From assembly GCA_937928165.1 (NCBI GenBank), contig CALFVT010000006.1, forward strand, positions 1 to 64,000: 64,000 nucleotides of DNA, read 5' to 3'. The notes beneath the pieces were generated by a model. The model saw only the letters and a program-made list of their open reading frames with translations, had not been told where the DNA came from and did no database searches. The position numbers were made by a program, and so were the translations under genes. The DNA is from an uncultured Caulobacterales bacterium. Its GTDB lineage: Bacteria > Pseudomonadota > Alphaproteobacteria > Caulobacterales > Maricaulaceae. Every line of letters begins with the position of its first letter. Position 1 is the stretch's first letter. Of the stretch, positions 303-20,142 are shown piece after piece.

Positions 303-327
303 GAAGAAAATGGAGCGGGCGATGAGA
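303..327. repeat. Island attachment site, distal copy (att)
   Basis: This 25-bp sequence repeats the 3' end of the tRNA-Gly gene as found at 20060-20084, with one mismatch (A for G at 309). The last 17 bases (311-327) are identical and include the encoded CCA, the discriminator base and the 3' acceptor strand. A tRNA 3'-end duplicate on one side and the intact tRNA plus a tyrosine integrase on the other is the standard picture of tRNA-targeted integration. The repeat is seen directly; the attachment role is inferred. Confidence 0.85.
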
Positions 328-3248: not shown

Positions 3249-3710
3249 TCAAATCAAACGTTTTGCGTTAGAGGAGCAAGGAGAGAATTCCCATATTTCG
3301 ACGGCATCTGGTATCAGATGATATCTCAATCTGATGTAATATGCCGCTAGGGTCTCGCCGGTAGTTAATCGTTCATCTCTGAGAACACAAAACATCTTTC
3401 GGAAATTTCTAGGGCTCATTGAAAAGTAATACATGGCTTGGTCCCATGTAGTTATTTTGGCACTAGGTACATTAGCCCCTTTCGTCCACGTGTGTGATTT
3501 GCATTCTACTAAAACCTTCGGCAATTTTGCGCCCAGATCAAACTCGTGTGGCTTTTTGTGTGCGCCTACACCTATGTCAATTTTAAACCGTGGCGTGAGA
3601 TCTAAATCTTGATCAACAAAAAATGAACGGACAGTATGTTCAAATTCATTTCCAACGTGAGCATTACTACGTGATCCAAGCCTTTGAAAATTATTATCCA
3701 TTGCTTTCAC
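3249..3710 (-). CDS. PD-(D/E)XK nuclease-like protein, last gene of the methyltransferase operon
   Basis: A 153-residue protein with a compact restriction-endonuclease-like core: an early acidic helix GNEFEHTV (E22, E24), then HEFDLG with D58, then VLVECKS giving the E69-C-K71 half-site. D-x10-E-x-K is the catalytic signature of the PD-(D/E)XK fold used by restriction and repair nucleases. A following helix (TTWDQAMYYF) fits the usual layout. It starts 15 bp after the stop of the receiver-domain gene and is therefore the fourth gene of a leftward operon with a DNA methyltransferase. The most likely role is the DNA-cleaving arm. Start could be GTG at 3710 or ATG at 3701; neither has a clear ribosome site. 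Confidence 0.72.
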   Translation of the reverse strand: MKAMDNNFQRLGSRSNAHVGNEFEHTVRSFFVDQDLDLTPRFKIDIGVGAHKKPHEFDLGAKLPKVLVECKSHTWTKGANVPSAKITTWDQAMYYFSMSPRNFRKMFCVLRDERLTTGETLAAYYIRLRYHLIPDAVEIWEFSPCSSNAKRLI

Positions 3711-3725
3711 TGAGGCCTATATGAC

Positions 3726-5102
3726 TTAAAAAGTTATTTCCTTTTGAATGGTATTGTCTAGTTTCAAAACTTTAACTCTACCACCTTTCTTGCCCACAAT
3801 TGTTTTGAGCCTATTTAAAGCAATGGCCTTGGTTGAAAATACCTTTTTTGTCGCGGCGGAGTCTCCAAGTTCTAGACACCACTTATTAGTTCTTTTATCC
3901 TTGTAAAGCGTATATTCATCAACAGGTTTTTGATCAAAGTAGGCTTGCCATGGAGCTCGAGGCAACCCTTGTCGTTGAATAAACAACCCATACTTTTGTT
4001 GAACTCGTGTAATATAAGGTTCCAAAAGTCGACCCTTTCTATCATTTTTTACGTCCTCCCATGACTTGATAACAAGGTCCTTGAATGAAAAGGCAATCAC
4101 TTTTCCATTAAACAAAAACGGCACACATTGTTGGTCTCCACGTTCTGTATGGGCTTCACTTTTGGACGCTTTTTTTCCTTTAAGAAAATACAAATCAGGA
4201 TTTGGATCACGCCCGAGCACCGTGTCGCACATCGGTCTTATATTAAGTAAATATCTATAACTTCCTCGATTCTCGCCCGTGTAATCGAAAATGTCTCCCG
4301 GAGAAATCCTAGTATCATCTAAAAAGGTGTTTGCGATAAAACGCTCGCCTTCCATCACCTTTCTTACTTCTGATGCAGACGCAGGTTCATCGGACACCAG
4401 AATATTTTTCCGATCAAATTTAAAAGGCGCCATTCGCGTATACAAATTTTTGGTAATTGCCTCTCCTAAATCATCTGAAGGAGAGGGACTATTGTCCTCA
4501 TTTGCTGCGGTCCAAATGGCCTCTGGCCATGCGTGACTTATTTTGAAGAACTCCAAGAACAAGGAATTTTTAGCTTTTGTGTATTCGCGCTCCCATTCTT
4601 TAAGAGCATAAATGGACGGAGACTCTTTTGCCCATTTTCGTAGCGCTACGAATAGGCTTCCTTTAACTAATTCTGTCTTTTTCTTAATAAAAATAGAATT
4701 TTTCAATGGATCTTTTGGATCATATAACTTCGCTTTTTTTAATGCTCTAACCACCTTTTCGTTCTTTTCATTTGTTGCGATGAATATAGGAATAAAGGTT
4801 TCCTCGGTCACGAGCTTTATGAAATCTACAATAGCTTCACCCAGAGCCACGGGAGGTACAAGGCCTGCCAAATCAGGGTCGTCCGATCCATGCTCAAATA
4901 AACGCCAATCAAGCAAAAGAAATGAAAAGCCACTCAAATGCTTTACAAAAGCTTCGGGGTCTTCAGGTATATCATCGTAGATTATACAAGGATATCCATT
5001 GCTCTCAATCTCCCTAATAAGTTTTTTGATCGTATCTTTGGTGTCATCCCGTTTGGCCTGATCATCAATAACCAAAACGGGACCATTGAATAGATTCCCC
5101 AC
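3726..5102 (-). CDS. Response-regulator-like protein: receiver domain plus long unknown C-terminus
   Basis: About 458 residues. The N-terminus is a receiver domain with every key residue: acidic pair D13-D14 (VLVIDD), phosphoacceptor D65 (LLLDWRL), the switch threonine (FIAT) near 110 and the conserved lysine (FIKKKT) near 140-142. No DNA-binding helix-turn-helix or enzymatic output domain follows. The middle is unrecognised, and the last 60 residues (FSTKAIALNRL...GGRVKVLKLD) resemble a small DUF2188-like alpha/beta repeat. I prefer GTG at 5102, which follows the kinase gene's TAG by one base and has AAAGGGA in front, over the TTG at 5120. Downstream of a histidine-kinase-like ATPase, it is the likely phosphate acceptor, or a decoy or adaptor for the nuclease. 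Confidence 0.75.
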   Translation of the reverse strand: MGNLFNGPVLVIDDQAKRDDTKDTIKKLIREIESNGYPCIIYDDIPEDPEAFVKHLSGFSFLLLDWRLFEHGSDDPDLAGLVPPVALGEAIVDFIKLVTEETFIPIFIATNEKNEKVVRALKKAKLYDPKDPLKNSIFIKKKTELVKGSLFVALRKWAKESPSIYALKEWEREYTKAKNSLFLEFFKISHAWPEAIWTAANEDNSPSPSDDLGEAITKNLYTRMAPFKFDRKNILVSDEPASASEVRKVMEGERFIANTFLDDTRISPGDIFDYTGENRGSYRYLLNIRPMCDTVLGRDPNPDLYFLKGKKASKSEAHTERGDQQCVPFLFNGKVIAFSFKDLVIKSWEDVKNDRKGRLLEPYITRVQQKYGLFIQRQGLPRAPWQAYFDQKPVDEYTLYKDKRTNKWCLELGDSAATKKVFSTKAIALNRLKTIVGKKGGRVKVLKLDNTIQKEITF

Positions 5103-5103
5103 C

Positions 5104-7341
5104 CTAATCCCTTTCAACAAAATCCACTAAAAAGTTAGCTCCATTTAAAGTCTTCTTCGACTTAACGACTGAATATTCAATTTCATACCCATGTCTGTTT
5201 AGTAATTGACGAGCTATATATAATCCTAAGCCTCTGCCTTCTTCGCCTTTGCCAGAATAAAACGGCTCAAAAATATATGAGATGTCCTCTTCGTGAACTC
5301 CGGGGCCAGAATCAGCAACAATCATCCGCTGCTTGTCACCATCTAGAACAACTTTTATTGCCCGTTTGTCCTTAGGAATATCGGCGAGCCAATAGACTGA
5401 ATTATCGAACAGATTTATTAGAAGCTGCAGAAGTACAGCCTCTGTTGATTTTACCACTAAAGGTGAGCCAATTATTTGGACGTTAAAATCAATAGATTTT
5501 AACTTAAAAATTCGTCTGTATATGTTAATTACTTTATCAAGAAGACCTTTAACACGAATTCGCTTTCTGCGTTGTTTCGAGGATTTAAATAGTAATTGAA
5601 CGTCATTCATCTGGTCATTCACGAATGAGAGCATCCCTCTCAATGTATGTAATTCATTCTCAATAAGTTTTGGGTCAAAATCGCCGTATTTTACGTCCTT
5701 AACAAGCCCATCAATAGAAACTAGCGCCTTGCTCAACATCGACGCAACGTCATGAGTAGTTGTCTCAACAGAAAGTCCGATTCCGGCTAAGTCCTCAGTG
5801 CTTTCAGCTCTGCGAACAAGGAAATCTCTTTCCGTTTCATAACTATCTTTAAGGGATTTTAACTGGCTTAACGCTGCCGTCTTTTTCTCATTTTCAATAG
5901 CAACCTGTAAAACATCAAATCCGTCTTCGACTTTTTTGGTTCGGATGCTATCGTGTGTTTTTTTGTCTTCGAGGCCTTGTCGGTAATGCTTGTACGGGTA
6001 CGTACGTAGGTATCCCAATAAACACTGCAATAGCGCAACAAAATCATCGGAAGCATTTCCTTTTTCTATCAAGCCCTCTCGATTAGTCTTGTCCTGCAGT
6101 TGGGGATTAAACTCATGTGTGATTCCCACAACACCTACAACCTGATCATTGCTCAAAAAATCACCGGCCGCAATTGTTCCGCGATATTGGTCAATTTTGA
6201 GCCAGTCATCATCAGGTTCACCATATGGATAAACCCTTATTCCATCTCGATAGAGATAAATGCGATGATCCTTCAGAATATCTTTGTCATTCCTATCAAG
6301 TTTATATTTGCCGGGCGCTTTGGAGCTAAAATCGAAAATATAAAAATCAAACCCAAAGTCTCCACATTCTGTCGTTCGCTCGGCCAACCCAAGTTTATCT
6401 TTAAAATGTTGTCTATAAACTCTAAGCCCCGTTATTCGCGAGTCTGATAGCTTTAAAACCATCGGTTTATCATTCAGCATAAATTTGAATGTTTTTTTCT
6501 TTTCGGAATATTGGCCTGCACGTACTTTGAGAACGGACTGTTCTTCAAGCAGGTTGTGAAACTCCTCCAAATATTGATCAGCAAAAGCGACTGCATCTTT
6601 GTCTTTGTGAAACGCTACATAAAAATCGTCTTTCGAGATTTTATTTTTCTTCTCAGAAAATATACTCTGTAGCTTAGAAATATCTTTAAGTGCTGCCTTG
6701 ACCTTTTTCTCAGTCCAAGACCCGGTAAGATTAGAAATAACAATTTTCGTTCCGCTAACTGGCTTTGGCAGTTTCCGTTTTCCTACGGTAATGGTTTTGC
6801 CTTTTACGCTCAGCGCTTTCTTTGTTGATAAATTTACGGTCAATTCATCAAGGAACATGCTATGCACATCTTCATTTTCGTCGGGAATTGAGTCAAAATC
6901 TTCACCAAAAGGAGAAAAGTCATACGAAATTGTATGACGATCCTTTTCCCCAATACGCGTCGTGAATATTTTAACGGTCTTGCCAAGTTTGAGGATTGCG
7001 AAACGCCCAATACCTTTTTCACCCTGCAAGTGCCTGCCAAGTTTTGTTGTAGGCATTTTTTCTTTTCGTTTTTTCTTTTCTGGAGTTGCAGGGTTTATCC
7101 AATGGTTCCTGATAATATCGGCACTCATGCCATCGCCATCATCTTCGATAATAATTTTAGAATCTTGATTAATCTCGTAACTTGGACCGAAATTTTTAAA
7201 AGTAACCTTCACCCATGAGGCATCTGCATCATATGAGTTTTTAGCAATTTCTATCAGCGCAACTCTCTCATTCTTGATAAGTTGCTCTCCCAGCATTGTT
7301 AGTAGTCTGGCATAAGGTTTGATCGGAAGCTTCTCAGCCAT
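5104..7341 (-). CDS. Double GHKL ATPase: Hsp90/MORC-like N-terminus and histidine-kinase-like C-terminus
   Basis: A 745-residue cytoplasmic protein with two separate GHKL ATP-binding modules. The first (about 15-210) has the N-box IEIAKNSYDAD (E31, N35), DDGDGM (67-72) and GEKGIGRFA (107-115), as in Hsp90, MutL and MORC proteins. After a long middle region and coiled coil (about 475-515) comes an H-box-like helix with H530 (TTTHDVASM), then a kinase-type module with N-box LFDNS (644-648), DSGPG (677-681) and GRGLGLYIA (702-710). No membrane segment or extracellular sensor is present, so any signal must be intracellular. It lies 2 bp after the methyltransferase and next to a receiver-domain gene, which argues for phosphotransfer between the two. 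Confidence 0.85.
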   Translation of the reverse strand: MAEKLPIKPYARLLTMLGEQLIKNERVALIEIAKNSYDADASWVKVTFKNFGPSYEINQDSKIIIEDDGDGMSADIIRNHWINPATPEKKKRKEKMPTTKLGRHLQGEKGIGRFAILKLGKTVKIFTTRIGEKDRHTISYDFSPFGEDFDSIPDENEDVHSMFLDELTVNLSTKKALSVKGKTITVGKRKLPKPVSGTKIVISNLTGSWTEKKVKAALKDISKLQSIFSEKKNKISKDDFYVAFHKDKDAVAFADQYLEEFHNLLEEQSVLKVRAGQYSEKKKTFKFMLNDKPMVLKLSDSRITGLRVYRQHFKDKLGLAERTTECGDFGFDFYIFDFSSKAPGKYKLDRNDKDILKDHRIYLYRDGIRVYPYGEPDDDWLKIDQYRGTIAAGDFLSNDQVVGVVGITHEFNPQLQDKTNREGLIEKGNASDDFVALLQCLLGYLRTYPYKHYRQGLEDKKTHDSIRTKKVEDGFDVLQVAIENEKKTAALSQLKSLKDSYETERDFLVRRAESTEDLAGIGLSVETTTHDVASMLSKALVSIDGLVKDVKYGDFDPKLIENELHTLRGMLSFVNDQMNDVQLLFKSSKQRRKRIRVKGLLDKVINIYRRIFKLKSIDFNVQIIGSPLVVKSTEAVLLQLLINLFDNSVYWLADIPKDKRAIKVVLDGDKQRMIVADSGPGVHEEDISYIFEPFYSGKGEEGRGLGLYIARQLLNRHGYEIEYSVVKSKKTLNGANFLVDFVERD

Positions 7342-7343
7342 GT

Positions 7344-8609
7344 TTATTTATATCCCACAATTATAAACTCTTCACTATAGATTTTACGGCCTGTGGAATC
7401 CGAAGTGAATTTTCCATCCTTGGTCCTATAAGGTGTCAGAAACTTTCTGCTAATCTTTCTCTTTGTGACTTTTAGGTCTTTGAAGCCACTCGATTTTAGA
7501 GACTCGGCTAAATGCTTGACGTTATCCATCCGAATTCCGCGATATTCAGTATTTCCAATTACAAACAAAGCTAGTCCATTTTTTGATAGAAGATCATAGC
7601 AAATCTTTGATGCTTTCTGCATGTCTAAAAAATACTTCGCTACGGAGCGGGCCTTGGCCTTATCATGGTCATATAGTTGAAAAACTATTTCGGAACCCGT
7701 TACGTTCAATCTTTTAACTTCTTTCGCGAAATCGTATTCGTGATGGAGGCTCCCAATAGTGCCCGCTCTTAAATCACGGTAATCATCAATAACTCCCAAC
7801 CAAAGAGAAGATAATTGATGCAGGTCTGCATATTCATAAGAAGTAACATATGGAGGACTTGATATTATCATATCAATCTTACCATTGTGGCTTTCTGCCT
7901 TCAAACAGTCCATCGTATCAATTTTAACGTTAGCAGTTAGGGCCGATTTATTTTCAGAGATTGCGGCAGCGATAAATTTGCACTGATCTCTAAACTTTAA
8001 AAATACGTCTGCCGGTTTCTTATCTGGGTCCACCTGAGGCTTGATTGATTTCTGCAGCCAAACAGACGTAGCTTTTAGTATATTTGAAAATGCACAAAGA
8101 AACAGGTCCCGATATTTACTACGAGTAGGTACGACAGCTTCAATTGCTCGTTTTAGATTATGGAGATCTAAGAATTGTTCTTCCTTAAACCAATACTTCA
8201 AGCGTTCATTAGCCGCTTTATATACATGTTGAGGCTTTCCAAACCTTCTATACTTAGCTTCTATCATTGATTGATACTCTAGCATTTTTGAGATTCTATA
8301 TTTTTGACTCTTTGCTCGAGCAATCAAAGTTGCCACCGGATTAATGTCACAACCCCAAAAATTGATATTATTGCGTCTTGCTTCCAATGCTACAGTTCCG
8401 CAACCGCAGAAGACGTCAGCCACTGTATCTAGTGAGACTCCTTCACCTTTTGCGTACTCCAATGCTTTCGTTGTAATAAATGCAGGAAATTTAGCAGGAT
8501 AAGCATGTATCCTGTGCATTTTCATCTCTTTTTCATCTGGAGTATTCCAGAATGAGTCTACAGGAACAGTACTAAAATCTGTTTTCCTGACATCCGAAAC
8601 ATCAAGCAT
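7344..8609 (-). CDS. DNA methyltransferase, SPPY type, first gene of the four-gene operon
   Basis: A 421-residue S-adenosylmethionine-dependent DNA methyltransferase. It has an N-terminal HRIHAYPAKFP motif seen in many amino-methyltransferases, motif I DVFCGCGT (about 65-72) with CDINP following, and the catalytic SPPY (about 251-254) after an insertion of about 150 residues. SPPY favours N4-cytosine or N6-adenine methylation. Motif I precedes the catalytic motif. I place the start at ATG 8609, behind a strong GGAGGGG; an upstream TTG (8627) would put that site inside the gene. It leads a leftward operon with an ATPase-kinase, a receiver protein and a nuclease-like protein, so it probably marks self DNA. 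Confidence 0.88.
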   Translation of the reverse strand: MLDVSDVRKTDFSTVPVDSFWNTPDEKEMKMHRIHAYPAKFPAFITTKALEYAKGEGVSLDTVADVFCGCGTVALEARRNNINFWGCDINPVATLIARAKSQKYRISKMLEYQSMIEAKYRRFGKPQHVYKAANERLKYWFKEEQFLDLHNLKRAIEAVVPTRSKYRDLFLCAFSNILKATSVWLQKSIKPQVDPDKKPADVFLKFRDQCKFIAAAISENKSALTANVKIDTMDCLKAESHNGKIDMIISSPPYVTSYEYADLHQLSSLWLGVIDDYRDLRAGTIGSLHHEYDFAKEVKRLNVTGSEIVFQLYDHDKAKARSVAKYFLDMQKASKICYDLLSKNGLALFVIGNTEYRGIRMDNVKHLAESLKSSGFKDLKVTKRKISRKFLTPYRTKDGKFTSDSTGRKIYSEEFIIVGYK

Positions 8610-8758
8610 ACGTTGTCCCCTCCACAATCTAACTTTTTAGGTTAACCCTTAGCAGAAAGAGTCTAAGTAGCGATAGTGTAATAATTCGTAACCATAGCCT
8701 AAAATTTTAACCAGAAATGGGATAATTTTAAACGAATCCGGATGTCTGCTATGCCCCC

Positions 8759-9409
8759 TTAGCAGTCAAAGTTTGCGCGTTTGATCAACCTTGAAACTGT
8801 CGACTTGTACCATTGACATCCGTTTCGTGATAAAATTCCAGCCGCATTTAGCCTATTTGCAATTGATTGCAAATCCATATTAAGGCTGATTCCTAAGTTC
8901 GGAAACTGCTTTATGATGTGGTTTGAGAACTCAATGGCATCGGCCCTGTTCTTTACCGCCAGAATCTTCCCATTCTTACCAAGTTCAACGCCTCGTTCTT
9001 TTGCCGCCGCGAGGGCTGCTTTAGTCCGTTCGCTAATACGGCGGCCTTCTTCTTCGGCCATGGCGGCATAGACATGGAGCATGAAGCGATCAGCATTGGG
9101 CATGTCCGCCGCTACAAAGTCGATACCTGCCTCCATAAGGCCGGATATAAAATGCACGTTTCGTGCGAGGCGGTCTAATTTGGCTATGACGAGCTTGGTT
9201 TTGTATCTTTTACAATGAGCGATGGCCGCTTCAAGTTCTGGGCGCTTGGATGTCTTACCGCTCTCGACTTCGATGAACTCTTTGAAGGATTGACCATCTA
9301 GTAAATGCTCTATGGTCTTTCTCTGAGCCGCAAGCCCTAGGCCGCTTTGACCTTGTCTTTGGGTGCTGACACGTAGGTAGGCTGCTGGCTGGGCTTCTAC
9401 GGGCTTCAT
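8759..9409 (-). CDS. Small serine recombinase (resolvase/invertase family)
   Basis: A 216-residue serine recombinase. The N-terminal catalytic domain has YLRVSTQRQ with R13 and nucleophile S15, followed by KLDRLARN (77-84) supplying the second and third active-site arginines, and then the EEEGRRISERTKAAL helix that joins the catalytic to the DNA-binding region. The C-terminus is a short helix-turn-helix (SRNGCQWYKSTVSRLIKR), so it belongs to the small resolvase/invertase group rather than the large phage integrases. It sits alone between the methyltransferase operon and the RarA-like gene. It may be a leftover of a transposon or an inversion system, but I see no paired recombination sites. 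Confidence 0.88.
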   Translation of the reverse strand: MKPVEAQPAAYLRVSTQRQGQSGLGLAAQRKTIEHLLDGQSFKEFIEVESGKTSKRPELEAAIAHCKRYKTKLVIAKLDRLARNVHFISGLMEAGIDFVAADMPNADRFMLHVYAAMAEEEGRRISERTKAALAAAKERGVELGKNGKILAVKNRADAIEFSNHIIKQFPNLGISLNMDLQSIANRLNAAGILSRNGCQWYKSTVSRLIKRANFDC

Positions 9410-9467: not shown

Positions 9468-10559
9468 TCACAGCTTTGCCTCCGTCATGGGGTATGAGCG
9501 CAAGGCAGTGCTTAAAATATGTTTCCCCTGATCGATCGTTTGCGGTGTTAAGCCGAATCCAACCTGATCTGCATGAGACCTTGCTTTGTCAGAAACAAAC
9601 CAAACCTGCCTCTCGGAACAAAGGGAAGAATATGACCTAAAATAGAGTTTCCTTAGTAAGGCCTTTCGGTCTGGGTAAGATATAACTTCAGCTAGATATT
9701 GTGAAAGCTCAGATGATTGCTCGCTAACCCATTGGAGATAACGCCGTCCCATTCGTGTGTTTCCGTCAAAAGCATATTGCGGGACTGAGCGCAGGAGGGG
9801 GCTTTTTGTAAGGTTGTCAGTTATAGAGTGTGTGGGCTCAGATATGCCGCGCCATGCTGACCATAATAAAGGGATAAGAGCTGGTAAGAGTGTTCCCGAC
9901 CTTGAGACAGCTATGCGGCATATGGCTAAGACATGTTCAGGGCAGAGTGCTGTGTCAAAGGTTTCGAAAAACAAGCCGATATCACCGGTACGTCTATAAA
10001 GTGCGTCAGAGCCATATTTATCAGTTCCGAGTAAATACCATGCGGCAATCGTGCGGCTATATAAGCTTTGCTCTCTGGACGTGACCTGCTCTTGTAATTC
10101 AGTCGTTGTGGCGGTGCCGAGATTATGTCTGATGGGCTCTAAAGATGCTTCGTGCTCAATGATTGTTAAAAGGTCGTCTGCGATACGGTTCTTCTGTGCG
10201 TGACATAGTGCTGATATAAGATAGGCCGCAACCTGCCATTCACCCCCTAGCTTAGCTCTCCAGTGTTTTGAGCCTGCCGCCGCCGTAACCATGCCGCAAA
10301 GATCAAAGTCGCCAAAGCTAATGTCTTCCCAAGCAATAACGACCAATCGCCGCCAAAACGATCTGTAATCGACATTCAGAAGAAAAGACCCCGCTCTTAG
10401 CGCTTGTCTCTCATCTCCGCGCCTAATTGCCTTTTGCAGCAGGCTCATAGCCACCCAACGATCAGGTAAGGGCCTGTATAAATGATCAGGTGGGGTATAA
10501 CCCCTAAGCCGATCTGCTAATTGTTCTTTGACATATTCCGTCCAGATGTTTTCAAGCAT
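9468..10559 (-). CDS. RarA/MgsA C-terminal-domain-like protein without an ATPase
   Basis: A 363-residue protein. Residues about 30-90 (RWVAMSLLQKAIRRGDE... FWRRLVVIAWEDISFGD) look like the helical C-terminal domain of RarA/MgsA clamp-loader-like ATPases, where the same 'LQKAIRRGD...ASEDIG' pattern is found. No Walker A or B motif is present, so this is a stand-alone helical module with an unrecognised C-terminal extension. A RarA-like replication-fork or clamp-loader contact is an inference from that similarity only. It is transcribed divergently from the Hsp90-like gene. Its first 140 bp and its leader are duplicated 4.6 kb away at 15001-15217. The ribosome-binding site lies in a palindrome. 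Confidence 0.6.
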   Translation of the reverse strand: MLENIWTEYVKEQLADRLRGYTPPDHLYRPLPDRWVAMSLLQKAIRRGDERQALRAGSFLLNVDYRSFWRRLVVIAWEDISFGDFDLCGMVTAAAGSKHWRAKLGGEWQVAAYLISALCHAQKNRIADDLLTIIEHEASLEPIRHNLGTATTTELQEQVTSREQSLYSRTIAAWYLLGTDKYGSDALYRRTGDIGLFFETFDTALCPEHVLAICRIAVSRSGTLLPALIPLLWSAWRGISEPTHSITDNLTKSPLLRSVPQYAFDGNTRMGRRYLQWVSEQSSELSQYLAEVISYPDRKALLRKLYFRSYSSLCSERQVWFVSDKARSHADQVGFGLTPQTIDQGKHILSTALRSYPMTEAKL

Positions 10560-10637
10560 TGCTGCCTCCCATAATAATGGGAGAGCAAAACCGTTTCACC
10601 CCGACTAAAACATAACTTTAGAAGCGGCGAGGTCAAT
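10421..10637. repeat. 217-bp direct repeat, copy A (5' end and leader of the RarA-like gene)
   Basis: This segment covers the first 47 codons of the RarA-like gene and about 78 bp upstream. It recurs in the same orientation at 15001-15217 with roughly 89 percent identity by eye. The two copies bracket the Hsp90-like and TPR-like genes. Confidence 0.85.
10566..10583 (-). promoter_or_regulatory. Palindrome overlapping the ribosome-binding site of the RarA-like gene
   Basis: CTCCCAT-AATA-ATGGGAG: two 7-bp arms with a 4-base spacer. On the minus strand the 3' arm is ATGGGAG, which runs into GGGAGGCAGCA-ATG, so it contains the Shine-Dalgarno. It could be an operator or a hairpin that hides the ribosome site. 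It is retained exactly in the degenerate second copy at 15145-15162. Confidence 0.5.
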
Positions 10638-10771
10638 GTGTTTGGCGAGATTGGAGTTTGAAAAACAATGTTATGTAAGAACATTAACTTTGTTGTACGA
10701 ATGTAAAGTAAGTGAGATTGTTTAGATCAGTATTGTCTTGCATGTTTGGCTTGAGAATTTAAACCAAAGCT

Positions 10772-12577
10772 ATGAGTGAAGCGTCAATTCAAAATACAGC
10801 TGTAAACCTAGATGGCCTGCTCGAGGTTTTAGGACAGAACTTATATTCTGACTCTGATGTTGCCATTCGTGAATTAATCCAGAATGCGGCAGATGCTTGC
10901 CACCGCCATAGGCTAGAGTCCGCCGCAGCGGATGATTATGCTATTCGGCTCACATGTGATCCCGGCGGAAATAAATTAATTATCGAAGATAACGGCTCTG
11001 GCTTGACGTTTGACGAAGTGAAGCAGTTTTTAGCCACCATTGGCTCCGGCTACAGCCGCCTCTTACGCCATGAAACCGCTACAGAAGATGTTGTTGGTTA
11101 TTTTGGCCTAGGCTTTTTAACGGCCTATATAGTTGCATCTAAAGTGCAAGTCGTCACATCTTCCTATCAAACGCCGGATCAGACGTGGAGTTTTACAAGC
11201 GCAAAAGGTAAGACTTATGCCATTGCACCGACTACGCCCCGAAGGCGCGGAACCACGGTTACGCTATGGCTTGAAAAGGAGTATCAGAACCTTTCAAATA
11301 GTGCTTTCCTGCGTTCTGTTATTCAAAAATATTGCTGCTTGCTACCAACGCCGATTTACATAAATGAAGAAAAAACGCATATAAATACGGTCCAAGCACC
11401 TTGGCGGCTCAATGACATTTCGCCTTTACGGCGCAATAAACTTAACCTTGAATTTGCAGCTATATTTGAAACAACATTTGAACCGATTGCGGTTTTTCCA
11501 ATTCCTGAAAACAACCCCTTTGAGCTTAATGGGCTGCTATGGGTTCAAGGCGGTAGCAGCTATGCGAGTACGGATAATCGCAACCTCTCTATTTTTTCGC
11601 GCAATATGTTTATTACGAATGCGGATAAAGAGCTTTTGCCCCGCTGGGCAGGCTTTACGGGCGGCATTATTGAGTCGTCAAAGTTCAAGCCGACAGCCAG
11701 CCGAGAAACCCTGCAAAAAGATGCGTATTACAAATCTGTTTGTGGTTATTTAAAGCAGGTTTTGTCACAGGCTTTAGGCGAACTTATTGCTACAGAGCCT
11801 GCAACATGGCGGCGCGTCTTATCGCGGCACGGACAGGCCTTGCTGGGTGCGGCGATTAGTGATGATGATTTATTTAACGCCAGTCATAAGCTCTTGAAAG
11901 TGCCAACGACAGAGGGGGATATGACGATCCCAGAACTGTTGCGGCGTGGTGATGGGAAGATTTATATTAAGCCATCTAATAATTCGGGTCATGAAGAAAT
12001 TCTCTTTCGCGCGAGGGGAAACCCCTTGGTGAAAGGCTTTCTCTACGGGGCAACAAATTTTTGCCAGAAATATGCAGACGCGCATAACGCCGCCATATAT
12101 GTTTTAGGAACCAAGGGCGTTCAATCTAATATCTTGGCTCCGTGCGAAATAAAAGACGTAAATATAAAAGCTTTATATTTAGACATCTTTGAAACGCCAA
12201 AATATGCCGTTGCCTTTACCCGGTTTACGCCTGCGCATATTCCGCTTCTTGTCATGGAAAATTTTGACGCCATTGTGAAAAATAAAATTGAGTCTGACGA
12301 GGTCGATAAACGTATTAGTACCGCTGCGCTTCGTCTTGCCCGCCTTACGACGGCGGAAACAACGGATGTTAAAGAAAATGTGATTTATCTAAATTTGGAT
12401 AATCCGGTCGTGCAGCAGATCCCTGATTTAAAACAGGCTCATCAAACTCATCTTGCGAATATGCTGAGATCGGTACTGGAAATGTTGTGCCGTGATAATA
12501 ACAATGCGGATGAAAACTTAGATATTGTCTTTTCGGCCTTTAATAGCGCTATACTTGCGCTAATTCATATGGAGTAA
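10772..12577 (+). CDS. Hsp90-like GHKL ATPase of a two-gene accessory module
   Basis: A 601-residue protein whose N-terminal domain is an Hsp90-type ATPase: AIRELIQNAADA (E34, N38), IEDNGSGL (71-78) and VGYFGLGFLTAYIVA (108-122). The middle region continues in the Hsp90 manner (FSRNMFITNADKELLPRW; SREtlQKD near 310-325), but the total length and C-terminus differ from housekeeping HtpG, and no terminal dimerisation segment is obvious. It is followed 11 bp later by a TPR-like protein, so the two are co-transcribed. Hsp90-type ATPases occur in several anti-phage systems; whether this is one is inference from the island context. Start ATG at 10772 has a weak ribosome site. Confidence 0.82.
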   Translation: MSEASIQNTAVNLDGLLEVLGQNLYSDSDVAIRELIQNAADACHRHRLESAAADDYAIRLTCDPGGNKLIIEDNGSGLTFDEVKQFLATIGSGYSRLLRHETATEDVVGYFGLGFLTAYIVASKVQVVTSSYQTPDQTWSFTSAKGKTYAIAPTTPRRRGTTVTLWLEKEYQNLSNSAFLRSVIQKYCCLLPTPIYINEEKTHINTVQAPWRLNDISPLRRNKLNLEFAAIFETTFEPIAVFPIPENNPFELNGLLWVQGGSSYASTDNRNLSIFSRNMFITNADKELLPRWAGFTGGIIESSKFKPTASRETLQKDAYYKSVCGYLKQVLSQALGELIATEPATWRRVLSRHGQALLGAAISDDDLFNASHKLLKVPTTEGDMTIPELLRRGDGKIYIKPSNNSGHEEILFRARGNPLVKGFLYGATNFCQKYADAHNAAIYVLGTKGVQSNILAPCEIKDVNIKALYLDIFETPKYAVAFTRFTPAHIPLLVMENFDAIVKNKIESDEVDKRISTAALRLARLTTAETTDVKENVIYLNLDNPVVQQIPDLKQAHQTHLANMLRSVLEMLCRDNNNADENLDIVFSAFNSAILALIHME

Positions 12578-12588
12578 GGAATTATAAG

Positions 12589-14910
12589 ATGGATATTTGG
12601 CGCTGGGTCCAAGGCCGTGAAGAGGCATTGCGGGCAGATGGGCATGTTGAATTAGCAAATTATATTGAAGAGCTTCCATCCTATGTTGTGGATGACCGGT
12701 TTGACCTTGTTGATCAAGTCTATCATGCGGCGCTCCCTCTGTGCCGTGCCCTAGATGATAAATGGCTAGAAGTTTATTTCCGTCATTGGCGGCTTCAAGG
12801 TCATGTTCTTAAAAACTATGATGCGAAAGGCCTATTAAGTGAAGCTATTTTGCTTCTTGATTTTGCTCACGGCGAAGAGACGAAAGATTGCCCGCAGCGT
12901 ATATGCGCCGTTCAAGACCTCGCCTCTTGTTACGGCATTAAAGATGGCCCTGGATTTGCCGAAGAACGCATATCTGTTTGTAAAGAAACTTTGGCGCAGA
13001 TTGATGGATCTTGGCCATGCTATGAATGTGTATCCAGCGAACTTTTAGATGCCCTCATAGATAAAAAAGATTATGAGCAGGCTGAGGCTGAATTGTGCCT
13101 TATTCAGACTGAGTTTTCTAAATTTCAAAAGCGTCCCGATGATGATCTTGTCCTAACAAAAACACGCATGTTTTTGGGGAAAGGGGAGATTGAAGACGCG
13201 TGGCGCTTAATTGAAAAAGCGGTAAACCCCGAAGGAGGTGAAGGTTTTATTCGTCATGTGACCCTCCTTAAGGCTTTGACGTTGTGTCATATGAAGCGGT
13301 GGGAAGAGGCTAAAGAAGTTTGTTTGCCTTTTAATGAAATCGTTTTGGCGTCAACTTATTATTCGGAATGGACAAAAATCCAAATCTTATTGGTGAAACA
13401 GGGTATCGTTGAAAATAATAAGGCGCTGCGTTATCAATTCCACAGCCTCGCGGATAAGCTTATAGGGAAAGATGCCATCAGACTTGCCTTTGAGGTCTGT
13501 GAGCGTTTAATTGAGCTTTGTATTGACGCCGGTGAGAGCCGCCGCGCCGATTACGTCATAGACATAATGAAACCCCTTATAGGGCAGCTGCACCGCGATT
13601 TAGGCGCGTCTGATACCCTCGTAGAGTTAGAGCGCCGCGCCTCTGAGATAAATGCTCCTGAGGAGACCGAGCCATTTGATAGTGCTACGGCCTTACTGGA
13701 TTATCAATTTAAAACTGAAAGCCAAGAATTCTTGGCTATTGCCAAGGGCCTAGAAACATGGCCGGATAATGGGCCATTATATGCCCGCCAATCTGATCTA
13801 TTTCAGTCCCATTTCCAAAATCAAGCGGCTTATGTGTTTTTAGAAGATGCCTATAAAGCCCATAGAGGCTCTGCCGCGCTCGAGAGTCGTTACGGCGATG
13901 CCTTCTTAGCCAAACATGGGTTTTCGGCCTATCAAGATAAGTTTCCGATGGGTCAATTAGACGGCCTATCAAACGGTGCTATTTGGAACCGTGGATTTAA
14001 ACATATTGAGCAATTCACAAAAAGTGAACCCCAAAAAGCTTTAGAGATATTAAAAATTATTGAAACCTATTGGGCCGAAGATATTTGGCTTATGGGACGA
14101 ATAGCCAGGCAGCATATAACACTTCAAGACTATGATGCGGCTATTACATTGCGCCGCCGGCAAATAGAGTTCGACCCTGAAGATGACAATCATAAATGGG
14201 ATTTATTAATTGCCGCAACATTGTCGCAAAATACGCCGCTCATACGGGAGGCGGCAGGCTTACTTAAAATCGAATTAAATAATGAGGGCCATTATGCTGT
14301 TGAAAGTCAATCTAATATACGCCTGCAATGGAAAATAAAGAATGGTGATATTGCAACCTATCATGCTGTTCGTAAAGGCCCAGCCTTAGCGCGGATCACG
14401 TCGATTTGCCGTATTGACGCTGAACATCAAGCCTATGGCTGTGAAGTAGTTTTTGATCCAGCGCCTTTAAATAAACTCAATCATGAAGATGATGAGGGTT
14501 ACGCCTGTGATGTAGACGGGAATTACAGCCTGCTTTACCCGCCGCCCTTGCTGACATTACATGACCCGCGTTATAAAACTTATACAATCGATGGTATTCA
14601 TCCAGGCGATGACGCTTTAAATCAATTATCGGCTCAAATAAAGGCTGCCGGATTTATATATTATGTCTGGAGCCCAGATAGCTATCAATTAACTTGGGAA
14701 GATAAGGGTAAGACGCGCACGGATCCAGCCGTTTATGTTTACTGCCTTATTCAAGACGGTAAAGAAGATTCATTAAATGACATGCTCATAAAGTTTAATC
14801 AAAGCGTAGAGCACCCATTGGTGTGGACTGAATTAACAAACGCCCGAAAAGATGAAGTCTTAGGTCTTGAACAAAGTGAAATTATAAGAAAGTATGGTAT
14901 TGAGGCCTAA
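12589..14910 (+). CDS. Large TPR-like partner of the Hsp90-like ATPase
   Basis: A 773-residue, mostly helical cytoplasmic protein. Repeated helix pairs of the TPR/SEL1 kind run through residues about 40-550, with patterns such as KDYEQAEAELCLIQ, KRWEEAKEVC and QDYDAAITLRRRQIEFDPED. The last 200 residues change to beta-rich, aspartate-rich sequence that I do not recognise. TPR proteins are classic clients and co-chaperones of Hsp90, which fits its position 11 bp after the Hsp90-like gene. The C-terminal part may be the sensor or effector end. A second copy of the 217-bp repeat begins 90 bp past its stop, marking the end of the module. Confidence 0.7.
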   Translation: MDIWRWVQGREEALRADGHVELANYIEELPSYVVDDRFDLVDQVYHAALPLCRALDDKWLEVYFRHWRLQGHVLKNYDAKGLLSEAILLLDFAHGEETKDCPQRICAVQDLASCYGIKDGPGFAEERISVCKETLAQIDGSWPCYECVSSELLDALIDKKDYEQAEAELCLIQTEFSKFQKRPDDDLVLTKTRMFLGKGEIEDAWRLIEKAVNPEGGEGFIRHVTLLKALTLCHMKRWEEAKEVCLPFNEIVLASTYYSEWTKIQILLVKQGIVENNKALRYQFHSLADKLIGKDAIRLAFEVCERLIELCIDAGESRRADYVIDIMKPLIGQLHRDLGASDTLVELERRASEINAPEETEPFDSATALLDYQFKTESQEFLAIAKGLETWPDNGPLYARQSDLFQSHFQNQAAYVFLEDAYKAHRGSAALESRYGDAFLAKHGFSAYQDKFPMGQLDGLSNGAIWNRGFKHIEQFTKSEPQKALEILKIIETYWAEDIWLMGRIARQHITLQDYDAAITLRRRQIEFDPEDDNHKWDLLIAATLSQNTPLIREAAGLLKIELNNEGHYAVESQSNIRLQWKIKNGDIATYHAVRKGPALARITSICRIDAEHQAYGCEVVFDPAPLNKLNHEDDEGYACDVDGNYSLLYPPPLLTLHDPRYKTYTIDGIHPGDDALNQLSAQIKAAGFIYYVWSPDSYQLTWEDKGKTRTDPAVYVYCLIQDGKEDSLNDMLIKFNQSVEHPLVWTELTNARKDEVLGLEQSEIIRKYGIEA

Positions 14911-15000
14911 CGAGTACTTCTTTTATATATCCGTTATATTAATTTCAGTTTTGTTTGCAGGTAAACACCTGCACGTTATGCTTGAGAGAGACATCCTGAC

Positions 15001-15217
15001 GCCTAATTGCCTTTTCCAGCAGGCTCATAGCCACCCAACGATCAGGTATGGGTGTGTATAAATGATCAGGTGGGGTATGGCCCCTAAACCGATCTATTAA
15101 TTGTTCTTTGAGTATTCCGTCCAGATATAGTCAAGCATTGCTGCCTCCCATAATAATGGGAGAGCAAAACCGTTTTACTCCGACTAAAACGTAGTTTTAG
15201 ACGCGGCAGGGGCAATT
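15001..15217 (-). pseudogene. 217-bp direct repeat, copy B: truncated, frameshifted 5' fragment of the RarA-like gene
   Basis: Same orientation as 10421-10637 and about 89 percent identical by eye. The reading frame that begins at the equivalent ATG is broken by a 1-nt deletion (CTTTGAGTATTCC where copy A has CTTTGACATATTCC), and the fragment stops after what would be codon 47. The upstream palindrome (15145-15162) is preserved exactly, which could mean recent origin or continued use as a binding site. Confidence 0.8.
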
Positions 15218-15612
15218 TATTTTAAATGTGGAGCCTGTATGAGGTAGTTCACATGTTTGGGCTTTCCCTCAATCAAAAAGGATCGATCATCAGTCAATGT
15301 AACAAGCACTTGAGTAATAGACTTGTTCCCTCCGCCTAAGGCCCCTGCTAATAAACCTATAGGTCCGAGTAAAACAGTTCCTGTTGCCGCCCAAGCAGCC
15401 TTACCAACGACACTGGTACTATTCTCGCTCGTAACTACTTGCGCATCCGCTATATCTTTGGGAAAGAATTTTTCTTTTTTGAACAGGGGTGAGCCGATGG
15501 CTTTTAAGCTTTTAATGCTTTTAAACCGTTCAGCTCTTATTCCGCCTGTTTTAATTATGACATAGCCAGCTTTAAAGTCACCACCGAGTACTTTTACTTG
15601 ATAGTTTGGCAT
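15217..15612 (-). CDS. Small hypothetical protein with a hydrophobic glycine-rich segment
   Basis: About 131 residues from ATG 15612, which has TTGAGGA about 8 nt upstream; a longer start at 15657 would run into the neighbouring gene. The N-terminal half is a charged alpha/beta stretch (MPNYQVKVLGGDFKAG...). Residues about 73-95 form a hydrophobic, glycine-rich hairpin (AAWAATGTVLLGPIGLLAGA) that could enter a membrane. A short beta segment with D-D-R-S-F-L-I follows, resembling the strand that ends SHOCT/PH-like small bacterial proteins. It has no named family that I recognise. It lies 10 bp after a secreted protein gene in the same direction, so the two probably share a transcript. Confidence 0.6.
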   Translation of the reverse strand: MPNYQVKVLGGDFKAGYVIIKTGGIRAERFKSIKSLKAIGSPLFKKEKFFPKDIADAQVVTSENSTSVVGKAAWAATGTVLLGPIGLLAGALGGGNKSITQVLVTLTDDRSFLIEGKPKHVNYLIQAPHLK

Positions 15613-16678: not shown

Positions 16679-17689
16679 TTAAGAAAATTTTGTATAATGT
16701 TTCTTAAAGAGCCCCGCTAATTCATTAGCGGATACTATCATTGGCTTCTCTTGATCGAGATCCTTTAACATTCTTTTGAATACTGGTTTTTTTAGCTCAC
16801 CACTACGTCGCAAATTATATTTCAAAGACGTATCAAAAAATTCACTTTTTATAAGCTTTGATTTCCGTATATCTACACGACGCGCGAAATGCACATCGTT
16901 ATAAACAGGTCCGCTTTTAAAGTAGCCAACATATAATCCGCCCCTAGGGCCCATGTGAATTGATATAAAAACCTCAGGCCAATCTTCTTCGGATAACCCC
17001 CATCCCTCAAAGTAATCATATCCTTCCGGGTGTCGACCATGTTCATTGCTATAAGACTTTTCTGCCAATTCGACCGTAGACTTGTCGTTTTCTTGGTTCG
17101 ATAATACAAATTGAATGTTTCCGAATACTTCGGGGCATTGTTTTATAGCTTCTATGATACTTAAATTTCCTTTGGCTATATTGCTTTTTGTTGTGTTGTT
17201 GAATTGAACCCTTTTGTTCCATAATATTTGCGCGTTCTCTAAGTCTGCAGCTGAAACCTTATTTGCTTCTTTCCAAGTTTGTTCAAACCATTTCTTCGCA
17301 TCATGCCAATGTTGAGTATCTTTCTTAGAGAAAGAGCCAGCTTCTATATTCTTAATTTTAGGTGTAATAAACCCTATGCCATTCTCTGATGCGTTTGCTG
17401 AAGTAATAATAACGCCAACATCCGAAATATACACCTTAGCGTGAAGTCCCTTTATTTGTTTAATATTTTTTGATTCCGGCGCTCCCATCTGTTCCAACTC
17501 TTTTGGATTTGTGCCTCCCATACTTAAGTCGCAAATGATTCGTGCTTTTAAATTCTGACTATTCTTTTTACTAAATAGGTGTTTTAAAGCCCCGTTTCCC
17601 CAAAAAGCGACAGCACAGCATAGGTTTTTACCTGAACAAACTTTTTTGATCTTCTTACTTAGTTTCGAGCCTACAAGAAATTTAGCCAT
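16679..17689 (-). CDS. Phospholipase-D-like (HKD) protein
   Basis: A 336-residue protein. The N-terminal third carries one phospholipase-D-type half-site: LHAKVYISDVGVIITSANAS, with H and K near residues 83 and 85 and the S-A-N element following, as in PLD-family nucleases such as Nuc/BfiI that work as dimers of single HKD motifs. No signal peptide or membrane segment is present, so it is cytoplasmic. The C-terminal half is unrecognised. ATG at 17689 follows TAGGAG by 8 nt. In an island this may be a DNA-cleaving defence protein, but a phospholipase or other phosphodiester hydrolase is equally allowed by the motif. Confidence 0.75.
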   Translation of the reverse strand: MAKFLVGSKLSKKIKKVCSGKNLCCAVAFWGNGALKHLFSKKNSQNLKARIICDLSMGGTNPKELEQMGAPESKNIKQIKGLHAKVYISDVGVIITSANASENGIGFITPKIKNIEAGSFSKKDTQHWHDAKKWFEQTWKEANKVSAADLENAQILWNKRVQFNNTTKSNIAKGNLSIIEAIKQCPEVFGNIQFVLSNQENDKSTVELAEKSYSNEHGRHPEGYDYFEGWGLSEEDWPEVFISIHMGPRGGLYVGYFKSGPVYNDVHFARRVDIRKSKLIKSEFFDTSLKYNLRRSGELKKPVFKRMLKDLDQEKPMIVSANELAGLFKKHYTKFS

Positions 17690-18202
17690 CACGTTTACTC
17701 CTAGGTGCGTACATCTGAAAATAAAGTGTCATATAATATAAGCTTTAGAAATAAGATAATATTTAACCCTTGATTTAACGGTAATAGGTAACTTTACAAA
17801 TTATTATTCTCAACAGTCGTCATTAATAAGAGCATTAAAACTGTCTAAAGCAATACACTTTTTTAATCTGAAAATAGCAAAGTAATGTCAATGCTTGCTG
17901 AAAAGTTAGACATTATTTTTTTGAGCCATTAAGCAATCACAAGGGTATCAGTTACATTTCTTAAATTCGCACCAATATAGGTGTCTAAACCTCAAAACTC
18001 AGCTTTAATATTGGCAGGAAAATACCTCAAAAACAATTACAAGTGTTTTCCCTTTAAAATGTTTACAAGTTACGGTGACTTTTTAATCACTTAGACTCCT
18101 AAAACATAAAAAAGTGGTAAGTTAAGGATGGGGTCAAAAAGATTACCAATCGTATTACCGCAGTGTTGAAAAATACATAGACTGACTAGACTTATATAGA
18201 CG
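17690..18202. other. Intergenic stretch, no gene seen
   Basis: About 510 bp between the PLD-like gene and the integrase. It is very A+T-rich, with stop codons in all frames and no reading frame worth noting. I see no tRNA, no array and no long repeat. It probably holds the PLD gene's promoter near its left edge. Confidence 0.5.
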
Positions 18203-18234: not shown

Positions 18235-19974
18235 CTATTTTATATATAGATGAGATAGGTCTAATTCCGGATACTTCACCTTTTCAATTTCTTTTGCCAA
18301 TTCAGCAATTGTAAAGCCAGATCCATAATCCGACTGTACGCCGCCTAATTCCCTCCATCCTCCAAGTGCGCTTTGACGGTCTGTAGGGATGGCCGCCGCA
18401 CGCATTGCATCTTTGAAATTATGACGGAAAGAGTGAAAACTTGTCTTTTCAGTTTTAATATCGTGTTTCTTTAAATAACGAGAGAATGCTTTAGAAAACG
18501 CATTTCTATGTTTTTCAACCGTTTCATATCGCTTTGAATCAAACAAAAGCCCTTTTGGAATAGTTTGGACGTATTGCATAAAACCCAATTTAACCAATTC
18601 AGGACTCAGCGGAACATTTCTCACCGAGTTATTAGTTTTTAAACTATTTTCCCCTTCATTATGACACTTAATATAAATTATCCCGCTTTTTTCATCTTTT
18701 TTTATATCACTCCTTTTCAACTGTAGGATTTCTTTCAGCCTAAAACCATGGGTTAGAGCAACTAATGGCACCCAGTAAAAGACATGACCATTTTTTGGCT
18801 TCAGTTTATAGAACGCTTGTGTTTTGAATAAAGTTGTTAGTTGCTTATTGCTAAACGGATGCCTTAAATCCTGTTTTGCCTCAGGATTTTTATCGATAGC
18901 AACAATACCTTCCATTGGGTTTTTATCGATGTATCCCTCAACCATAGCGTAGGACATCAAACGCTTTAGACTCGATAAACGCTTTTTCACATTGGAGGGC
19001 TTCATAATACTTCTGTTGTACTTCTTTCCATCTTCAACTAATTCCTGAAGAGAGAAATTATTAGTGCGTTCAAGTTTGCGCGCATTGGTCGGCATTTCAC
19101 TTAATAGATCTCTAAGATGTTTAAAGTCTTTGCGGCTAATTTCGTTTACTGCGATTTTTGAACCCACTATTTCTATAAGGTAACTGAAAGCCGCCTCCAT
19201 GTCCTTGCGCATTCTGTCACTAAAGGAATGGCTGGCCTCCTCGAAGAACTCCTGAATCAAACCTTCTAAGGTTATCAAGTTAGTTGCTGAACATTTTTCA
19301 TTGAGGCTGAATTTTGGGGTTTTATAAACATCTTCTAATTTAAATAAGGGAATCGTAGGTGTTTTATCAAAACGAACACCGATTCGGATCAGTTCCTGCT
19401 CACTCAATTCAATAAGAGCTTTTCTGACGAGTTCTTCCAAACGGAGGTATTTGGCTTCCGTCCGGTCAACGTTTACTCCTTGCCGGGCTTTGCTCTTCGT
19501 CTCAGGGAAAAGTAGTAAACCCTTGGGGTAACCTTCAGCTATCAATAGCTGATCAGTTGCTCTACCGAGGTCTGCTGCAATGCGGTTTGGATTTCCTCTT
19601 TTCCAGAAGTCTCGCTCCATAAGACATTCTTTAATATAAGCTGTTTTCTGCTCCGAACTCTCAAATGGGTTGGTATCATTTTCCAACACTTGTTGATATT
19701 TGGTGCGAAACCATTTCTGTACTGTCCAGTCTATATTGAGTTTATCTAGCGAATGAGGTTTAGCTTTTGTCAGTTGCCTTTCTGCTTCTTCACATAACTT
19801 ATTATACTCAACCAACTTTTCAGCGTATCGTTTGTAGGCTGTAGTTTCGTCAGAAGTTTTGAGGCTTTTCTTGAATTGTTGCCCCATACCCATAATTTCA
19901 ACAAGATGAATAGGAATGCGACGGCGAAAATAGAACTTTTTATTGATTTTTGTGAGATGTGGATACTTAGTCAT
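18235..19974 (-). CDS. Tyrosine-type site-specific integrase of the island
   Basis: A 579-residue tyrosine recombinase. The catalytic domain holds HGFRLKE (first Arg), HSFRHNF (H514, R517, H518), the GGW tryptophan (W540) and the nucleophile in QSDYGSG (Y550). The N-terminal half has the arm-binding and core-binding regions found in long integrases of tRNA-associated islands, starting with the HLTKINKKFYFRRRIP element. It reads away from the tRNA-Gly gene 94 bp off and next to one att repeat, so it almost certainly catalyses insertion and excision at 303-327 / 20060-20084. No excisionase was recognised. It looks intact. Confidence 0.92.
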   Translation of the reverse strand: MTKYPHLTKINKKFYFRRRIPIHLVEIMGMGQQFKKSLKTSDETTAYKRYAEKLVEYNKLCEEAERQLTKAKPHSLDKLNIDWTVQKWFRTKYQQVLENDTNPFESSEQKTAYIKECLMERDFWKRGNPNRIAADLGRATDQLLIAEGYPKGLLLFPETKSKARQGVNVDRTEAKYLRLEELVRKALIELSEQELIRIGVRFDKTPTIPLFKLEDVYKTPKFSLNEKCSATNLITLEGLIQEFFEEASHSFSDRMRKDMEAAFSYLIEIVGSKIAVNEISRKDFKHLRDLLSEMPTNARKLERTNNFSLQELVEDGKKYNRSIMKPSNVKKRLSSLKRLMSYAMVEGYIDKNPMEGIVAIDKNPEAKQDLRHPFSNKQLTTLFKTQAFYKLKPKNGHVFYWVPLVALTHGFRLKEILQLKRSDIKKDEKSGIIYIKCHNEGENSLKTNNSVRNVPLSPELVKLGFMQYVQTIPKGLLFDSKRYETVEKHRNAFSKAFSRYLKKHDIKTEKTSFHSFRHNFKDAMRAAAIPTDRQSALGGWRELGGVQSDYGSGFTIAELAKEIEKVKYPELDLSHLYIK

Positions 19975-20059: not shown

Positions 20060-20084
20060 GAAGAAGATGGAGCGGGCGATGAGA
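20060..20084. repeat. Island attachment site, tRNA copy (att)
   Basis: Partner of 303-327. Here the 25-bp repeat overlaps the 3' end of the intact tRNA-Gly gene from its CCA inward. It lies 86 bp from the integrase start codon. Confidence 0.85.
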
Positions 20085-20142
20085 TTCGAACCCACGACCC
20101 TCACCTTGGCAAGGTGATGCTCTACCACTGAGCTACGCCCGC
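20068..20142 (-). tRNA. tRNA-Gly (anticodon GCC)
   Basis: A 75-nt cloverleaf with encoded CCA. The acceptor stem GCGGGCG pairs with CGCCCGC, followed by discriminator T. The anticodon stem TCACC/GGTGA frames the loop TTGCCAA, giving GCC. The T-arm reads GTGGGTTCGAATCTCAT. It is the integration target of the island: its 3' end is duplicated at 303-327, and the copy here is complete, so the gene survives insertion. Confidence 0.97.

Follow-up and report, generated by a model that had tools for sequence, protein, structure and literature searches.

A recurrent three-gene module of DNA methyltransferase, double-GHKL sensor kinase and response regulator with a predicted toxin-fold output domain, carried on a tRNA-Gly island

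The DNA discussed here is a stretch of 64,000 nucleotides, hereafter the window, from contig CALFVT010000006.1 of an uncultured Caulobacterales bacterium. Its minus strand carries a compact operon in which a DNA methyltransferase, a sensor kinase with two GHKL ATPases and a response regulator follow one another, and comparison with relatives leaves hardly any doubt that these three genes form a module with a conserved order. An earlier annotation of the same sequence (the first-pass annotation) had described a four-gene unit, in which a phosphorelay seems to sit between DNA modification and cleavage by a small PD-(D/E)XK protein. The output of the module is more likely to be the C-terminal domain of the regulator itself, whose predicted fold is that of the MazF and CcdB toxins, than the PD-(D/E)XK protein. 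The features of the operon are the following.

7344..8627, minus strand: methyltransferase, 427 aa; an in-frame ATG gives an alternative start at 8609, the end used in the first-pass annotation
5104..7341, minus strand: sensor kinase (double-GHKL), with Pfam HATPase_c_3 and HATPase_c
5752..5754, minus strand: codon of the predicted phospho-donor H530; H530 and D531 are invariant in 60 aligned sequences
3726..5120, minus strand: response regulator of 464 aa, for which a GTG at 5102 is an alternative start
4617..5096, minus strand: receiver domain, regulator residues 9-168, with the phospho-acceptor D71 (codon 4908-4910)
3969..4313, minus strand: output domain with a MazF/CcdB fold in the predicted model, regulator residues 270-384
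3249..3710, minus strand: small PD-(D/E)XK-like protein, a local passenger and not a core gene

The spacings along the operon are 2, 1 and 15 bp, where the 1-bp value applies to the GTG start at 5102 and turns into a 17-bp overlap with the longer regulator start; with the same change of start, D71 is the residue that the first-pass annotation had numbered D65. The four reading frames and spacings of that annotation were confirmed, its coordinates differing by the choice of start codon only, and the residues that it had singled out, namely SPPY in the methyltransferase (residues 257-260), H530 in the kinase and the receiver aspartate, are all present and conserved.

The recurrence of the module was surveyed with a kinase query alignment of three relatives (the window, an Allorhizobium plasmid typed as conjugative and an uncultured faecal contig). 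The scan of the genome collection returned 374 kinase relatives, and the locus counts given here refer to the best 80 of these. By family profiles, a methyltransferase lies directly upstream of the kinase in 78 of the 80 loci (same strand, within 400 bp) and a regulator directly downstream in 77 (within 600 bp), with a median spacing of -4 bp at both junctions. Among the exceptions, L081 (without methyltransferase), L061 and L089 (both without regulator) run into a contig edge; in L090 the kinase frame is broken, and L085 has a truncated kinase with no regulator found by tblastn. The record titles of the 80 loci span well over ten phyla, archaea included; many of these loci are metagenome bins, and single phylum placements may therefore be wrong. 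The expectation of the first-pass annotation that four families would recur together in unrelated genomes was thus borne out for the methyltransferase, the kinase and the regulator, in conserved order, and failed for the PD-(D/E)XK gene. An independent search for regulators, which covered 398 genomes of the phylum, gave two matches: that of the window and another that belongs to a complete trio. Of 385 genomes of the class, the module occurs in one, which is the window's own.

A set of viral contigs contributed 47 kinase relatives. The trio is carried by L092, L093 and L095, the last of which seems to be the contig of L040 again, having the same length and range, and in L094 the kinase sits at the contig end and the regulator was not found. 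The more distant viral relatives occupy loci L096-L138, some of which are cut by contig ends. Two of them, L119 and L124, hold a more distant version with a related methyltransferase and kinases of 828 and 835 aa, and the 505-aa regulator of L124 matches both regulator profiles.

The fourth gene behaves differently. Its product shares F23-E24, F57-D58 and E69-C-K71 with two relatives and may, by these residues, be a nuclease. However, a profile of three relatives found no PD-(D/E)XK protein in loci L012-L138, and among all scanned loci it matched only two of its three source relatives and L192. The PD-(D/E)XK relatives found are located on a Methylobacter plasmid, a Haloplanus plasmid and one viral contig, from which the trio is absent; L140, L141 and L192 gave no kinase, methyltransferase or regulator match. 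Within the class, the gene is present in one of 289 genomes, again the window's own. The four-gene unit was therefore rejected, and because the PD-(D/E)XK gene is not a conserved partner, a phosphorelay leading to its cleavage activity does not describe the recurring system.

What follows the regulator was surveyed in the 66 loci where the sequence continues for at least 600 bp beyond it, counting open reading frames (ORFs) of at least 90 aa. In nine loci a co-directional ORF begins no more than 60 bp after the regulator. None of the other 57 has one so close: in 21 the first gene lies on the opposite strand, and in 36 the next co-directional ORF is further off or absent. Since 57 of the 66 loci lack a further co-directional gene at this distance, the output probably lies within the trio. 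A shared fourth gene was also sought by clustering the downstream genes, and this candidate was discarded, as the largest cluster holds 5 proteins from 3 loci; five cluster members were scanned with Pfam and returned HsdM (three), a C5 methylase and an AlbA_2 protein. Ten downstream genes in all were scanned, and they are not an unbiased sample because they were chosen by closeness or by clustering. Their matches are HsdM (L059, L078 and L080), a type III restriction helicase (L046), a C5 methylase (L045), a Schlafen-type helicase (L048), AlbA_2 (L064) and AAA_21 (L069), with no Pfam match in L060 and L002. Some of the downstream genes are restriction-modification (R-M) or other conflict genes.

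The methyltransferase is, on the strength of its motifs, a DNA amino-methyltransferase (Pfam N6_N4_Mtase, E 3.7e-15; PADLOC MTase_II, E 3.6e-36), and its product may be N4-cytosine or N6-adenine, two chemistries that are indistinguishable here. Motif I precedes motif IV (SPPY) in the sequence, and M.PvuII is matched weakly by the three-sequence methyltransferase profile, in two pieces of swapped order (E 0.0054). Across 52 methyltransferases, G75, G77, S257 and P259 are invariant, with P258 and Y260 nearly so. Pairwise identities are correlated between kinase and regulator (r 0.86) and between methyltransferase and kinase (r 0.65), with none of 999 permutations as high over 52 loci. The methyltransferase seems to have been exchanged within the subfamily, because L035 and L037 share 77% identity in the kinase and 34% in the methyltransferase (41% in the regulator). 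Furthermore, a second methyltransferase of the same family adjoins the first in L002 (5073-6263), L023, L024, L040/L095, L052 (5051-6244), L054 (5317-6522), L061 (5344-6540) and L218 (11459-12700), a count that omits L072 and L087, where the second match is weak or distant; such pairs perhaps serve an asymmetric site. The family is not specific to the trio, since the viral-contig scan with the methyltransferase found at least 23 loci, one with a kinase match (L201) and 22 without. Upstream, 11 loci (L019, L028, L030, L031, L039, L044, L045, L047, L050, L085 and L093) have a small HTH_3 gene of the helix-turn-helix (HTH) type whose end is no more than 14 bp from the start of the methyltransferase, resembling the control genes of R-M systems, and in L086 an HTH_17 gene lies 39 bp from the methyltransferase.

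The kinase matches HATPase_c_3 (E 1.4e-20) and HATPase_c (E 1.1e-18) in Pfam, and its AlphaFold model has a predicted local distance difference test score (pLDDT) of 82. In the VIA comparison of this model, the N-terminal ATPase (residues ~6-454) is closest to MORC3 (Z 20.6 over 300 residues) and Hsp90 (Z 20.5), and the tie between the two limits the MORC assignment to the fold, not the family. The second ATPase (residues 590-745) resembles ThkA with Z 20.4 over 146 residues, while residues 523-744, which include the dimerisation region, resemble HK853 with Z 19.1 over 213 residues. Thus, as modelled, the kinase is a MORC/MutL/Hsp90-like ATPase (~6-454) fused to a classical HK853-like histidine-kinase core of dimerisation helices and kinase ATPase (~515-744). 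The key motif residues of both ATPases, together with H530-D531, are invariant in 60 kinases.

The receiver of the regulator is intact, to judge from D19, D71, W72 and K148, which are invariant in 75 aligned regulators; the conservation of D71, of H530 in the 60 kinases and of SPPY in the 52 methyltransferases is far more than chance. The AlphaFold model of the regulator has a pLDDT of 86, and in it the receiver (residues 9-168) resembles solved receivers, with Z 11.3 for PmrA, 11.1 for KdpE and 11.0 for PorX. The output domain (residues 270-384) resembles MazF-mt3 (5hk0_C, Z 11.8 in VIA, root-mean-square deviation 2.7 over 106 residues) and S. aureus MazF (Z 11.7), which can be set against the best Z of 7 to 8 that VIA typically gives for models without a clear Foldseek match. 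With Foldseek, MazF ranks fourth in the PDB (E 0.0021, probability 1.00), and PemK/MazF proteins fill the first four rows among viral models (best E 7e-4). G275, C298 and P368 of the output domain are invariant and D276, N293, R295, D299, Y311, R364 and R383 nearly so, and these conserved residues are the family's own. No solved relative of the regulator was found by sequence at E 1, and no PADLOC model matches the window regulator, two weak models matching one member each of the 75. The tail of the window regulator (residues 404-464, window 3729-3911) has a sub-threshold DUF2188 match (E 6e-4), found in one of the 75 relatives.

On features read from the sequence or predicted from it (the gene set and its order, the intact phosphorelay residues, the folds, the phylum spread and the tRNA-island carriage), a self-contained, methylation-guarded phosphorelay with a toxin-like output may be proposed. 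The methyltransferase would mark the host DNA, and the kinase, soluble and clamp-like, would monitor the DNA or the state of the methyltransferase. If the mark were missing, or foreign DNA entered, H530 would phosphorylate D71 of the regulator, and this would free the C-terminal MazF/CcdB-fold domain, which could then halt growth or damage nucleic acid. The outcome would be an infected cell that releases no phage, or the death of a cell from which the island is lost. Here we infer that the signal is the methylation state and that the kinase touches DNA; phosphorylation would activate rather than restrain the output, the output would be toxic, and the purpose would be defence or addiction. Taken as a whole, the proposal is tentative, and we place it slightly below an even chance.

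Several observations weigh against it. The survey covers the 80 most similar of the 374 genomic relatives, and of the 43 distant viral relatives (L096-L138) four have a regulator match next to the kinase (L100, L107, L124 and L128) and two have a methyltransferase match directly upstream of it (L119 and L124). As the trio is seen in the closest 80 and is rare in the distant viral relatives, its tight arrangement is shown for this subfamily only. The likeness to R-M control genes must be read with the way in which the HTH genes were collected, by eye among 23 small ORFs in 76 loci, and the window itself has no upstream HTH gene. With regard to the output domain, V. fischeri CcdB (3tcj_B, Z 11.7), a toxin that is not known to be a nuclease, ties with MazF, and the top two Foldseek matches in the PDB are hybrid kinases at TM 0.2. 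Alignment by hhalign with 30 PemK toxins gave a probability of 0.3%, equal to decoys, and PemK (PF02452) is absent from the Pfam matches of ten output domains and, at E 0.01, of 75 whole regulators. The catalytic pattern of MazF, an Arg-Pro before the second strand and a Thr or Ser after the third, was not seen in the output domain either, and a fold shared with toxins shows no function. The domain was accordingly rejected as a sequence homologue of PemK/MazF, since the 30 PemK proteins gave no similarity, and in view of this and of its own set of conserved residues it is called here a toxin-fold domain, not MazF.

The same evidence can be read in other ways. The kinase and regulator might be a switch for the methyltransferase or for nearby R-M genes, with a barrel domain that only binds DNA or protein and kills nothing. 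Response regulators are mostly transcription regulators, the output domain is without sequence similarity to PemK, and both upstream HTH genes and nearby R-M genes occur in some loci, all of which would suit such a switch; yet no conserved target gene follows the trio, no HTH family was detected in the 75 regulators at E 0.01, and some loci already possess a separate HTH gene, so that we regard this explanation as unlikely. Alternatively, the trio could be a selfish addiction module, in which the methyltransferase has the protective part, cells that have lost the island are killed by the kinase and regulator, and no anti-phage role is needed. This view agrees with the carriers of the module, namely a tRNA island, a plasmid typed as conjugative and contigs classed as viral (L092, L093 and L095), and with its patchy presence (1 of 385 genomes of the class), but its anatomy would be identical to that expected for defence, and we consider addiction as the sole role decidedly improbable.

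The four-gene restriction system of the first-pass annotation, with a phosphorelay controlling PD-(D/E)XK cleavage, draws on the position of that gene (15 bp downstream, same strand) and on its E-D-ExK residues (E24, D58, E69 and K71). It is very hard to reconcile with the lack of PD-(D/E)XK relatives in L012-L138, with the occurrence of such relatives away from the trio, and with the downstream survey, where 9 of 66 loci have a close co-directional ORF, those scanned with Pfam matching different families (L046, L048, L069 and L078) or none (L060); this makes it the least credible of the explanations. The methylation-guarded phosphorelay with a toxin-fold output would matter for three reasons. 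Restriction-type systems are thought to sense methylation directly at the nuclease, and here the response appears to be separated from the DNA mark by a phosphorelay. With the predicted toxin fold, the compact trio has a concrete, testable output. Finally, a link would be drawn between MORC-type ATPases, known from eukaryotic silencing, and a bacterial kinase encoded next to a DNA methylase.

The operon is carried on a mobile tRNA-Gly island. The first-pass annotation had placed it inside a tRNA island, and the island is real, being bounded by a 25-bp repeat that includes the 3' end of the tRNA-Gly gene and provided with an adjoining integrase:

303..327, no strand assigned: left attachment repeat of the island, a direct repeat with 20060-20084 (25 bp, 96% identical)
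20060..20084, no strand assigned: right attachment repeat, overlapping the 3' end of tRNA-Gly (20068-20142)
18235..19974, minus strand: integrase of the tyrosine type beside tRNA-Gly (Phage_integrase, E 8.1e-15)

Other genes were noted on the island. A reverse transcriptase gene (648-1991) lies just within the left attachment repeat, and its best matches are a group II intron reverse transcriptase (1.2e-11) and RT_UG17 (2.3e-10), none of them strong. Directly upstream of the operon is a serine recombinase (8759-9409; Resolvase, 2.1e-27). An Hsp90-family protein and, 11 bp further on, a 773-aa protein that matches the tetratricopeptide repeat (TPR) weakly form a pair (10772-14910) that is possibly another conflict module. 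A duplication of ~220 bp (10420-10643 and 15000-15222, 92% and 87% identity) covers the start and upstream region of the gene at 9468-10559, and a 337-aa protein (16679-17692) has a weak DrmC match (E 0.0033) and no Pfam match.

Comparison with known systems places the trio near several of them. With type II R-M it shares, by sequence, the methyltransferase, whereas no conserved cognate restriction nuclease was found in L012-L138; the output domain may hide a nuclease activity. The N-terminal GHKL half of the kinase is matched by NF050001, the model of the restriction enzymes BbrUII/HgiDII (E 1.1e-17, 64 bits against a cut-off of 550), but the rest of the kinase is a histidine-kinase core instead. 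The MazF/PemK and CcdB toxins share the predicted fold of the output domain without sequence similarity, and in the trio this fold is joined to a receiver. In Detocs the kinase bears a TPR sensor; no Pfam match to TPR was found in the window kinase, in line with the first-pass annotation, which had set the operon apart from Detocs on this point. It had also excluded BREX, DISARM and Hma, and the PADLOC-DB 2.0.0 models gave no matching component set for these or for MADS. In the same database, the kinase matches two REase_II models via its ATPase half, and the best 25 of 42 methyltransferase matches are mostly MTase_II, with mad2 (1.4e-10) and HmaB (2.4e-6) among them.

The paraMORC ATPases occur in R-M operons as a GHKL-S5 ATPase next to a DNA methylase (Iyer 2008, PMC2292703), an arrangement that the trio shares; the available portion of that paper mentions no receiver, response regulator or two-component system. 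The candidates of DefensePredictor are, by the legend of Fig. 6F (PMC13092281), predicted and unvalidated systems whose listed domains include HATPase and REC. A literature search joining response regulator, MazF or toxin domain, receiver and methyltransferase found no paper. The suggestion that the system is undescribed therefore needs division: this exact gene set was not matched, while a related two-component-like pair beside type II R-M genes, Response_reg_2 (PF19192)/HEF_HK (PF19191), is already in print (Bellieny-Rabelo 2021, PMC8011034; HEF_HK is also named in PMC10663231). In the portion of PMC8011034 that is available, the Response_reg_2 proteins are without any other known domain, no output domain is named and MazF is unmentioned.

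Both the window trio and this pair combine a kinase of HATPase_c_3, His helix and HATPase_c with an adjoining receiver protein, near a DNA methylase. Among 398 genomes of the phylum, ten have Response_reg_2, and all ten regulators adjoin a protein of 990-1155 aa matching the window-type kinase profile; six of these kinases were scanned, and each has HATPase_c_3, HEF_HK and HATPase_c. In eight of the ten loci the same strand carries a C5 methylase, confirmed with Pfam, at most ~610 bp upstream. By hhalign, window-type and Response_reg_2 regulators are similar in the receiver (probability 92-94%) and in the GD...CD start of the output domain (probability 85-95%), against 0.1-0.2% for decoys (linker and PemK). 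The differences lie in the methylase (C5 in the pair, N4/N6-type in the trio), the kinase (990-1155 aa against ~745 aa) and the regulator (542-721 aa against a median of 414 aa). The window kinase does not match PF19191 at E 0.1, and the window regulator does not match PF19192, which 3 of its 75 relatives do (best 1.6e-5). With remote homology in receiver and output start, and with these two families unmatched, the window trio forms a compact branch of its own within a wider class to which Response_reg_2/HEF_HK also belongs. The distant pair keeps the kinase, the receiver and the output domain's start beside a C5 methylase, so that the same signalling pair can be combined with different methylation chemistries. 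A toxin-fold output may also be present in Response_reg_2/HEF_HK and would perhaps offer that uncharacterised class a testable output as well. It is conceivable, if rather doubtful, that all belong to a widespread class of immune systems in which a MORC-like clamp detects that a DNA mark is missing and a His-Asp relay carries the signal to a receiver-fused MazF-fold toxin, with an exchangeable methyltransferase of the N4/N6 or C5 type.

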